The notes below the pieces were generated by a model that had not been told where the DNA came from, ran no database searches, and saw nothing but the letters and a program-made list of their open reading frames with translations. This document shows positions 37,256 to 40,234 of a stretch of DNA of 64,000 nucleotides, in pieces. Location: the NCBI RefSeq assembly GCF_014526325.1, contig NZ_JACNMJ010000002.1, positions 310,001 to 374,000 on the forward strand, in the 5' to 3' direction. Position numbers and translations under genes: made by a program. This stretch comes from Psychroserpens algicola. Its GTDB lineage: Bacteria > Bacteroidota > Bacteroidia > Flavobacteriales > Flavobacteriaceae. How positions within the stretch are numbered: the stretch's first letter is position 1; every line of letters begins with the position of its first letter.

Positions 37256-37385
37256 AAGTTGATTGGTGTTGGTTCTATAAAAATAGTAAAAATTGTTATG
37301 AGAATCCTCTTAACTTCAATTCTGATTTTTTTCAAACATTCAAAAATAAAACAATATTCACTTGATTTTCAATGGTTTATATTTT

Positions 37386-37402
37386 TTGGCACGCATATTG
37401 GT
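37386..37402 (+). promoter_or_regulatory. Sigma-54-type (-24/-12) promoter of the 227-aa exported protein
   Basis: TTGGCACGCATATTGGT matches the sigma-54 consensus YTGGCACG-N4-TTGCW in all of the -24 box and the TTG of the -12 box with exact spacing. The ATG is 78 bp further on. No TAnnTTTG box was picked out nearer the gene. Confidence 0.65.
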
Positions 37403-37480
37403 TAGTTCAAAACAAATAGCGTAAGCCGAAAAGTTTCTAAACGAGTTAGACACAAAGGCTAATCTAAAAACCTATAAATT

Positions 37481-38164
37481 ATGAAAAAGCAAGTACTTTT
37501 TATGGCGATGGTGTTAATAGGATTAACATCAGCTACAGCGACAGCAACAGGACATGTTGCTTTAAATGGGGAAGATTATAATAATGCACGCTATCGTTTT
37601 GCAGAACCTATTGTGTTCATTGAGCGTGGTGTAGAGTTTTTAATTTTTCCAGATGGAAGTTTTGATTTTAACACAGAAATCAACACTAACATTTCAGATG
37701 TGTACTACAGAACTTCAAAGTCTAGAAGGAGTTCAGTTAACACAAAATATGGTACTCCTGGTACTGTAAGTAGAATTCATTACAGCAGATCATCAAGACC
37801 TACTGGAGTTATTATAACACACGACAGTAATGGATTAGTTAGACGAATTGGTAACGTATTTATCAATTATGATAGAGATGGCCGAATTAAACGAGCCGGA
37901 TCTGTTTACATGAGCTACCAACGTGGAAATGGACTGTTACGTCAGGTTGGCGGATTAAAAGTAAATTATAACCGTTGGGGTGAAATTGTTCATGTCTCTG
38001 GTATCGTTAACCGCTACAATGCAGATTTAAACTGTGGTCTAGGTTCTGGTTATGGTGGAAATCAACACGATTACTACGAGTATGATGGTGATTTTGATGA
38101 TAATTTCTACTACTACAGAAAAGATGGAAAAGTAAAAAAAATTAAAAAACATAAAAAAGCCTAA
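37481..38164 (+). CDS. Exported protein with 16-residue Tyr/Gly repeats (paralog 1)
   Basis: A 227-residue exported protein with signal peptide MKKQVLFMAMVLIGLTSATATA. A conserved core motif GVEFLIFPDGSFDFN lies at 50-64. Residues 109-180 are four tandem units of about 16 residues of the form G-x-V-x-I-x-Y-x-x-x-G-x-I-x-x-A/V (for example GNVFINYDRDGRIKRA and GGLKVNYNRWGEIVHV), which read as short beta hairpins. The C-terminus is acidic/Tyr-rich (YYEYDGDFDDNFYYY) then Lys-rich (KKIKKHKKA). The paralog at 39035 shares motif and repeats. No known domain; a sigma-54-like promoter and a terminator flank it. Confidence 0.75.
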   Translation: MKKQVLFMAMVLIGLTSATATATGHVALNGEDYNNARYRFAEPIVFIERGVEFLIFPDGSFDFNTEINTNISDVYYRTSKSRRSSVNTKYGTPGTVSRIHYSRSSRPTGVIITHDSNGLVRRIGNVFINYDRDGRIKRAGSVYMSYQRGNGLLRQVGGLKVNYNRWGEIVHVSGIVNRYNADLNCGLGSGYGGNQHDYYEYDGDFDDNFYYYRKDGKVKKIKKHKKA

Positions 38165-38223
38165 TGCACACAATGCATTAACTACTTTGATTGGTTGTTC
38201 ACTATTGTAGTGAGCATATATAG

Positions 38224-38260
38224 AATCCCGGAGTGTTTCCCCAAACCTTCGGGATTTTTA
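38224..38260 (+). terminator. Terminator after paralog 1
   Basis: aatcccg (38224-38230) pairs with cgggatt (38250-38256), followed by a short T-run; the loop is long (19 bases). It also touches the end of the hydroxylase-like gene on the other strand. Confidence 0.65.
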
Positions 38261-38869
38261 GTTATCTACTAGTTTCAATTGGCTTTCTTTAATAATAGCG
38301 CGTAAATTTTCATTTGGTATCATATCTATAGTCAAATTCACCCGTTCGGTATCTCCTGAATTTACCACGCGATGGGCATCCGTTAATTTTAAATACCAAC
38401 ACTCTCCTCGCTTCATAGGAACTGGCTGATTATTTAAATAAAAGGTTACTTTCTCACTTTGCAAAATCGGTATTGTTAATCGTATCACCGATTGTTCTAT
38501 TTCTAGACCTAGCGTTGGATCTGTATGTTCTTTTACATTTGAATGAGGAGCAAGTCTTAATAACCTTACGAGAGTAACCGAAGTAATCTCTTTAAATGCT
38601 TCTACAATACTTTTGATATATGGAGAAGATTCTAGTTCACTAGTATCTAACCAATCGGTCCATGAACCATCAGCATAATCATCTGCAGGTGGTGGCACTG
38701 GTATTGATGCATCTACAATATAAGCAGGAGCTCTCAACTGAATTACATTATAGTATTCAAAATTATTAAGTTTGAGTTCTAAATATTCTTTCAGCAACTT
38801 ATCAGCATCAAAGCTAAAAGGGAGCTTAACGCGATCAATTATCGCTTGTTTACCTTGCAGTACTTCCAT
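38258..38869 (-). CDS. Aspartyl/asparaginyl beta-hydroxylase-like dioxygenase
   Basis: Predicted iron/2-oxoglutarate oxygenase of 203 residues in the cupin fold. The iron ligands are visible as H115-T-D117 (APHSNVKEHTDPTL) and H166 (TDAHRVVNSGDTERVNLTID), with R176 in place to bind 2-oxoglutarate. QLRAPAYIVDASIPVPPPADDYADGSW precedes with a Pro-rich loop (in pieces). No signal peptide, so it acts in the cytoplasm. The frame extends to 38914 but ATG 38869 (MEVLQGKQ) gives a compact start. It lies, reversed, between the two sigma-54-linked paralogs; substrate unknown. Confidence 0.8.
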   Translation of the reverse strand: MEVLQGKQAIIDRVKLPFSFDADKLLKEYLELKLNNFEYYNVIQLRAPAYIVDASIPVPPPADDYADGSWTDWLDTSELESSPYIKSIVEAFKEITSVTLVRLLRLAPHSNVKEHTDPTLGLEIEQSVIRLTIPILQSEKVTFYLNNQPVPMKRGECWYLKLTDAHRVVNSGDTERVNLTIDMIPNENLRAIIKESQLKLVDN

Positions 38870-38984
38870 ATTTAAAAAAAGATTTATTTGTAATCTAATA
38901 TAAGTAGTCAACAAAACATATTTATGGGTAAAACTACTCGTTTTTAATGACCTGAATCACAACACTAACAGAGCATTTCGTTTT

Positions 38985-39001
38985 TTGGCACGCTAATTGT
39001 T
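38985..39001 (+). promoter_or_regulatory. Sigma-54-type (-24/-12) promoter of the 399-aa exported protein
   Basis: TTGGCACGCTAATTGTT matches YTGGCACG-N4-TTGCW except for one base in the -12 box, with exact spacing. The ATG at 39035 is 33 bp away. The first nine bases are identical to the site at 37386. Confidence 0.65.
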
Positions 39002-39034: not shown

Positions 39035-40234
39035 ATGAAACGAATATTATCACTTTTTACTGTATTGTTCCTGGTAGGTACAACGGTAAACGCAACAACC
39101 AACAACTTAGCAAAATCAAGCACATCATACAACTACGTTAGAGGTTATGGCAATTCGTTCATATTTAATGTAGACGGTATTGAATTTTCAGTATTCCCTG
39201 ATGGGCAATTTGATTTTTATATCCCTAATTATGGTCCGAATGTTAACGTTGGATTTAGTTCTCCTAATGTATCTATAAGTTTTAATACAGGATATGACTA
39301 TAATCCTTATGTGCAGTACGATGACCTAGGTGCAATTATTCAAATTGAAAACACTCCTATTTATTATGATTATTACGGACGCATATCTCAAGCCGGAAAT
39401 GTAAACATACATTACAATAGCTGGGGACGTATTTCTCGAGTAGGCGGATTATATGTACACTATAATAGATACAGAACGTTTTCACACTGTACAGGGTTTA
39501 TAAATGTGTATAATAGAGCTTATGTATACAGACCTTGGCACAGCTACTATGTAGTTCCTCCAGTAAATTACTGTGTGGTATATTCAAGACCTTACAGACA
39601 ATTTTACACACCTGTAAGACATACATATTACAGACCTTATAGAGATAATTACAGACAGCCTGTAAGAACAAACAGCAGACGTGGAACGGCAGCTACAACA
39701 GGTCGTCGAGGATCTACAATAAGTGATCGTTACCGACAAGATGCAACTTCGACTAGACGAGGAGGAAATAATACTGTAGCAAATTCTACAAGACGAGATA
39801 ACAACAGAGCTATGACGTCTTCTAGAACGACAAATAACAGGGGGTTAACTAGACCTAATTCTGACTCAAGAACGTCTACCAGAGCAACTAAAGAGACCTC
39901 AAGACATGGTAATTCAAGAACGATAACTAATTCTAGAGCAACAAGCAGAACAACTAAAGTTACACCTAGAACTACAACTTCTAGAACTAAAAATGTGACC
40001 AAACCACGTAGTTCTGTGTCTAATAAACGAACGACAACAAGAACGGATAAAAAAAATACGAGTATAAGAAAACCAAACACAACAAATTCTCGTATATCTA
40101 GTAACAAACGAAGCAGTAAATCTTCATCAAAGGCTACACAGTCTAGAAGTAGAAATCAGTCTTCGATTAAATCATCAAGTTCAAGAACTTCATCAAAGAG
40201 TTCAAGAACTTCTAGATCAAGATCACGTTCATAA
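39035..40234 (+). CDS. Exported protein with 16-residue Tyr/Gly repeats and a long Arg/Ser/Thr tail (paralog 2)
   Basis: A 399-residue exported protein with signal peptide MKRILSLFTVLFLVGTTVNA. It shares with paralog 1 the motif GIEFSVFPDGQFDFY (48-62) and three 16-residue repeats at about 105-160 (GNVNIHYNSWGRISRV, GGLYVHYNRYRTFSHC). Residues 161-210 are Tyr/Arg/Pro-rich (YYRPYRDNYRQP). From 211 to the end the sequence is almost only R, S, T, N and K, without hydrophobic residues, so it is disordered and strongly basic. Such a tail could bind DNA, anionic glycans or another envelope polymer. Adenine-rich codon usage in the tail reflects its composition, not clear transfer. Confidence 0.75.
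   Translation: MKRILSLFTVLFLVGTTVNATTNNLAKSSTSYNYVRGYGNSFIFNVDGIEFSVFPDGQFDFYIPNYGPNVNVGFSSPNVSISFNTGYDYNPYVQYDDLGAIIQIENTPIYYDYYGRISQAGNVNIHYNSWGRISRVGGLYVHYNRYRTFSHCTGFINVYNRAYVYRPWHSYYVVPPVNYCVVYSRPYRQFYTPVRHTYYRPYRDNYRQPVRTNSRRGTAATTGRRGSTISDRYRQDATSTRRGGNNTVANSTRRDNNRAMTSSRTTNNRGLTRPNSDSRTSTRATKETSRHGNSRTITNSRATSRTTKVTPRTTTSRTKNVTKPRSSVSNKRTTTRTDKKNTSIRKPNTTNSRISSNKRSSKSSSKATQSRSRNQSSIKSSSSRTSSKSSRTSRSRSRS

Follow-up and report, generated by a model that had tools for sequence, protein, structure and literature searches.

The locus raises the question of whether two short elements of the form TGGCACG-N4-TTG, located in front of two genes for exported proteins in Psychroserpens algicola, are promoters of sigma-54 (RpoN), and to which regulatory programme the two genes, here called P1 and P2, would then belong. 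The window, i.e. the whole stretch of DNA that was analysed, has a length of 64,000 nucleotides. The elements had been reported in an initial annotation at 37387-37400 (TGGCACGCATATTG) and 38986-38999 (TGGCACGCTAATTG), and both were recovered there as exact intergenic matches on the + strand with sigma-54 geometry; with the preceding T-tract included, both sites read TTTTTGGCACGCNNNTTG. The features of the locus are the following:

37383..37400, + strand: sigma-54-type -24/-12 promoter of P1 (TTTTTGGCACGCATATTG), assigned by exact-pattern match and homologue conservation; GG (-25/-24) at 37388-37389, G (-13) at 37400, -12 base G, not C
37413, + strand: predicted transcription start of P1, 12 nt after the -12 position, placed by sigma-54 geometry
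37416..37459, + strand: structured 5′ leader RNA of P1, a DUF805b variant (RF02914) that has the GCC/GGC pairing plus a covarying hairpin as an insertion
37481-38164, + strand: P1, a 227-aa exported protein with YD-like beta repeats
38982..38999, + strand: sigma-54-type -24/-12 promoter of P2 (TTTTTGGCACGCTAATTG); -12 base T
39012, + strand: predicted transcription start of P2, placed by sigma-54 geometry, giving a 23-nt leader
39035-40234, + strand: P2, a 399-aa exported protein with a conserved N-terminal domain of ~175 aa followed by a Ser/Thr/Arg-rich tail

The two products had been described as paralogous exported proteins, and both parts of this description were borne out: P1 and P2 are related over ~190 residues (BLASTP E = 4e-13, ~31% identity), and the N-termini of both are signal-peptide-like in sequence. 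Searches of Pfam, at the family cut-offs, and of NCBIfam assigned neither protein to a family. The AlphaFold model of P1 (pLDDT 46) was set aside, while the model of the P2 domain (pLDDT 66) gave weak matches to the teneurin YD-shell (Foldseek best E = 0.04; profile E = 0.006), which are taken as a lead and not as an assignment. The conserved part of P1 and P2 resembles a string of YD-type beta hairpins and is weakly similar to the teneurin shell. The low-complexity, Ser/Thr/Arg-rich C-terminal half of P2 is similar in composition to the tail of a lipoprotein of the same genome (L052), whose gene also carries a candidate site.

A pattern search of the window gave no TGGCACG-N4-TTG match besides these two, in agreement with the earlier statement that no comparable intergenic match occurs elsewhere in it, and dinucleotide shuffles yielded a mean expectation of 0.05 against the two observed. 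The genome-wide search proposed in the initial annotation covered 3.8 Mb in 17 contigs and returned five matches to TGGCACGNNNNTTG (reversed control pattern: 0) and three to the exact TTTTGGCACGNNNNTTG (TTTTGGCACG-N4-TTG), two of them being the window sites. All three exact sites are located upstream of exported-protein or lipoprotein genes, the third standing outside the window, where a gene encoding a 316-aa lipoprotein begins ~35 bp downstream. A looser genome-wide pattern, TTGG-N8-TTG-NTT-N25-55-ATG, was dropped as too noisy (51 matches vs 29 for the control). Sites with one mismatch were additionally seen in the same genome before the genes of an exported nuclease/phosphatase-like protein, a Ser/Arg-tailed lipoprotein and a LysM protein (L050, L052, L054); these genes are likely further members of the sigma-54 set.

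Conservation of the upstream sites, a check also proposed earlier, was analysed in 151 Flavobacteriaceae genomes, comprising one genome per genus and the window's own genome. Homologues of P1/P2 are present in 126 of the 151, nearly all of them different genera, and TTTTGGCACG-N4-TTG occurs 189 times in the set vs 16 times for the reversed control pattern, with many of the matches standing before P1, P2 and lipoprotein-family genes. In 80 named genomes, which were picked via the P2 protein match alone, the site is kept by 78 of the 80 P2 homologues and directly upstream of 45 P1 homologues, i.e. nearly all of those present. It is the most conserved stretch of upstream DNA in both sets of homologues. 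The sequence logo reads TTTTTGGCACG-N4-TTG, with the GG and the G essentially invariant: the GG at -25/-24 within TGGCAC is found in both window sites and in 98-100% of the 123 homologous sites, and the G at -13, with the fixed spacing GG-N10-G, in both window sites and in 100% of the homologous ones. Immediately beyond the site the information falls to background level on both sides, and conservation rises anew 12 nt after the -12 position, which is the predicted +1. Further P2 genes from genera chosen by protein match alone carried the site in 20 of 20 cases with 12-14 of its 14 letters, within a partly conserved neighbourhood (uvrA-P2-flippase-glycosyltransferase), and a third gene family with the site comprises 12 lipoprotein genes from different genera.

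The exceptions among the P1 homologues can mostly be accounted for. In four seeming ones (L182, L184, L197, L213) the promoter and the leader RNA lie ~600 bp upstream, where the promoter precedes an inserted gene for a 148-aa exported protein, and a second copy of the RNA stays before P1. A few others (e.g. L042 and L044) were without the site within the 170 bp examined; an inserted gene explains the case of L044 and probably also that of L042, for which a site is listed farther upstream. Beyond the Flavobacteriaceae, a class-wide sample yielded P2 in a single genus of one other family; three P2 homologues of that family carry related yet diverged GG-N10-G sites. The DNA upstream of the P1 and P2 homologues showed no conserved site for an activator, and a TGATWATCA palindrome near the -24 box was rejected as a general activator site, being present at one position in only 12 of 78 P2 upstream regions. 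Some P2 leaders (L085, L095, L098, L100, L101) contain another conserved element, GCTGACCAAA...AAGCAAGTAC, between the promoter and the start codon.

The sites agree with the sigma-54 consensus in the -24 box and the spacing, but not in the full TTGCW, due to the fact that the -12 base is G at the first site and T at the second. Compared with canonical TGGCAC-N5-TTGCW, the P1/P2 sites share the TGGCACG box, the GG-N10-G spacing and the TTG of the -12 box; they differ in having A or G (P1) or mostly T (P2) for the C at -12, and in an extended T-tract before the -24 box. C occurs at this position in none of the 45 P1 and in ~3 of the 78 P2 homologues. Because the -12 C is a consensus position, these promoters were filed as a sigma-54 variant. 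The groES genes of the window's genome and its relatives have a -24/-12 site of their own, commonly TTGGCACATTTTTAGCA in 30 family genomes, and C is found at -12 in 19 of these 30; the difference from the P1/P2 sites (Fisher p = 8e-14) is only indicative, since the sequences are related and not independent. Moreover, the groES promoters contain the hexamer TGTCAG within 60 bp in 28 of the 30 genomes, nearly always at a constant distance of 17-18 bp from the -24 TGG that follows it, whereas it is absent from all 135 promoters of the P1/P2/lipoprotein class. It is often part of CTGaaacTTTGTCAGT (groES promoters of the window's genome, C15, ~81470, L218, and of L262-L291).

The deviating -12 base lends some weight to the reading that an operator of another DNA-binding regulator has been conserved here and that an ordinary sigma-A promoter directs transcription, and a compact, sharply bounded conservation would also be possible for an operator. 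The sigma-A box TAnnTTTG, which the initial annotation had named as the signal that would speak against sigma-54, is however absent from both leader regions in the window and unconserved in the homologues (5/45 P1, 6/78 P2, nearly all overlapping the site itself). The fixed GG-N10-G geometry is that of -24/-12 promoters, the predicted +1 is again conserved, and the SM4 promoters of the same family are experimentally supported (PMC9723704). Taken together, the operator reading is improbable.

Recognition of the sites by an extracytoplasmic-function (ECF) sigma factor is less probable still. The boxes of ECF promoters, -35 and -10, are ~16-17 bp apart; those found here are separated by 4 bp in unconserved surroundings. 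Bacteroidota ECF factors often control exported-protein genes, which would suit P1 and P2, but the seven ECF factors of Flavobacterium psychrophilum are linked to a separate motif class, SM6, in the same publication (PMC9723704). Chance matches to a short motif, conceivable for a 10-letter pattern in 3.8 Mb, can practically be discarded given the 0.05 matches expected in the window and the conservation at the same place in many genera despite diverged flanks.

In order for the sites to function as sigma-54 promoters, the sigma factor and its activators have to be encoded in the genome. An absence of rpoN had been considered decisive against this reading; one complete copy (486 aa) was found, with the activator, core-binding and DNA-binding domains all present and the RpoN box ARRTVAKYR, and rpoN is present in 151 of 151 family genomes. 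Two strong, true sigma-54 activators, both with a sigma-54 interaction domain, were identified as well. The first is a 387-aa receiver-AAA+ protein (REC-AAA+) without a C-terminal DNA-binding domain; its relatives occur in 144 of the 151 genomes with 59-95% identity, and because their open frames span only 387-425 aa, the missing DNA-binding domain is the rule for this activator. The second is an AAA+-Fis protein without a receiver domain, encoded in the arrangement miaB-EBP-lptE-TPR-secG-groES-groEL. All of these genes are located elsewhere in the genome, consistent with the earlier statement that neither rpoN nor an activator gene lies in the window. Using the distribution of rpoN or of the receiver-AAA+ gene as a pointer to the regulator was rejected, because both genes are nearly universal and where they occur is thus uninformative.

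Based on the sequence evidence as a whole, we are confident that both sites are genuine sigma-54 promoters and that the sigma-54 regulon of the Flavobacteriaceae has a branch for envelope proteins, to which P1 and P2 belong together with at least one lipoprotein gene and probably further genes. The proposal of a co-regulated set of two genes was sound with respect to co-regulation and too narrow with respect to size, as the set extends beyond two genes, e.g. to the lipoprotein gene. Due to the conservation of the promoter type across the family, P1 and P2 very probably fall within its partly known sigma-54 envelope/stress programme. For F. psychrophilum, Guerin et al. 2021 (PMC9723704) report mapped start sites and a -24/-12 motif, SM4, which was ascribed to sigma-54, lies at the mapped starts and was confirmed by promoter mutagenesis; its targets are chaperones, gliding genes, lipoproteins and exported unknowns, and the authors suggest that SM4 clusters may reflect distinct activators. 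By analogy, the window sites fit an SM4-type regulon: the two organisms belong to the same family, and in both there are -24/-12 promoters, a single RpoN, a small number of PF00158 activators and, among the targets, exported unknowns and lipoproteins. They differ in that starts and expression were measured in F. psychrophilum, while the starts of P1 and P2 are predicted. Sigma-54 control of chaperones in Flavobacteriia was also predicted in a later survey (PMC12316311).

At both promoters RpoN polymerase would wait in the closed state, and transcription would start once an AAA+ activator spends ATP. This activator would open the P1 and P2 promoters on an envelope or stress signal, a type of signal suggested by SM4 expression (PMC9723704). 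For P1 a second, post-transcriptional layer would be added by the leader RNA, which begins at +4, three bases after the predicted start, so that the transcript would open almost directly with a DUF805b-type RNA ~20 nt before the start codon; P2, whose leader is short and plain without such an RNA, would lack this layer. The window copy scores 18 bits against RF02914, a cis-regulatory Rfam family, which is under the gathering cut-off of 35.6 bits, whereas the P1 leaders of relatives mostly score 36-48 bits, above the threshold, and share the pairing of a GCC loop with a 3′ GGC. The window copy represents a variant of Psychroserpens type that contains an inserted hairpin and is also found in the P1 leaders of L137, L139, L143, L146, L148, L150, L167 and L172; in this variant pairing is kept in 98% of cells, and both sides have changed in 7 of the 11 pairs. 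In the DUF805b RNAs of relatives two helices form a pseudoknot, backed by 35 double-changed cells, and the loop GCC × 3′ GGC pairing shows GC/AU/UA exchanges (GC/AU in the window-type variant). The RNA was rejected as a general mark of sigma-54 control: copies before other family genes are without a sigma-54 site, so that promoter and DUF805b RNA occur together only at P1 and at the gene inserted next to it. These other copies (among L107-L136) often lie ~16-27 nt before start codons, and the genes behind them are small secreted or bacteriocin-like ones, and others.

TGTCAG is a possible binding site of the AAA+-Fis protein and would suit a Fis-type activator; its fixed position at groES and its absence from the P1/P2 class point to two activator classes. 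It is therefore conceivable, though put forward here only tentatively, that the Flavobacteriaceae have two classes of sigma-54 promoters, chaperone and envelope, each read by its own activator. At the chaperone class (at groES, TTGGCACATTTTTAGCA with TGTCAG) transcription would depend on the DNA-binding AAA+-Fis protein, whose gene lies a few genes before groES. The envelope class (P1, P2 and lipoproteins; TTTTTGGCACG-N4-TTG, with neither a -12 C nor a conserved element upstream) would respond to the highly conserved receiver-AAA+ activator acting from solution, with specificity coming from the promoter sequence alone. Activation from solution in the manner of FlgR is suggested by two observations: nothing conserved was found upstream of the sites, and the activator present in nearly all genomes is devoid of a DNA-binding domain. 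FlgR of Helicobacter pylori is enhancer-independent and likewise combines a receiver and an AAA+ domain without a C-terminal DNA-binding domain (PMC9696931, citing Brahmachary 2004); the two proteins are likened by architecture, and P1 and P2 are no flagellar genes.

Since sigma-54 control of exported proteins is experimentally documented in F. psychrophilum (PMC9723704), the system as such is not new. Three points look new with respect to prior knowledge: a promoter class without the -12 C that the groES sites of the family mostly keep, a P1 leader opening three bases past the predicted start with a DUF805b-type RNA, and the fixed TGTCAG of the groES promoters that does not occur in the P1/P2 class. 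Two widely conserved exported proteins, so far uncharacterised, are placed in a sigma-54 programme, and their trigger therefore becomes testable. For a large and little-studied bacterial family a sharp promoter signature is gained, and two candidate classes of sigma-54 promoters, which could be matched to two activators, are set apart. Moreover, for one of its target genes the orphan Rfam RNA DUF805b is given a defined regulatory context.
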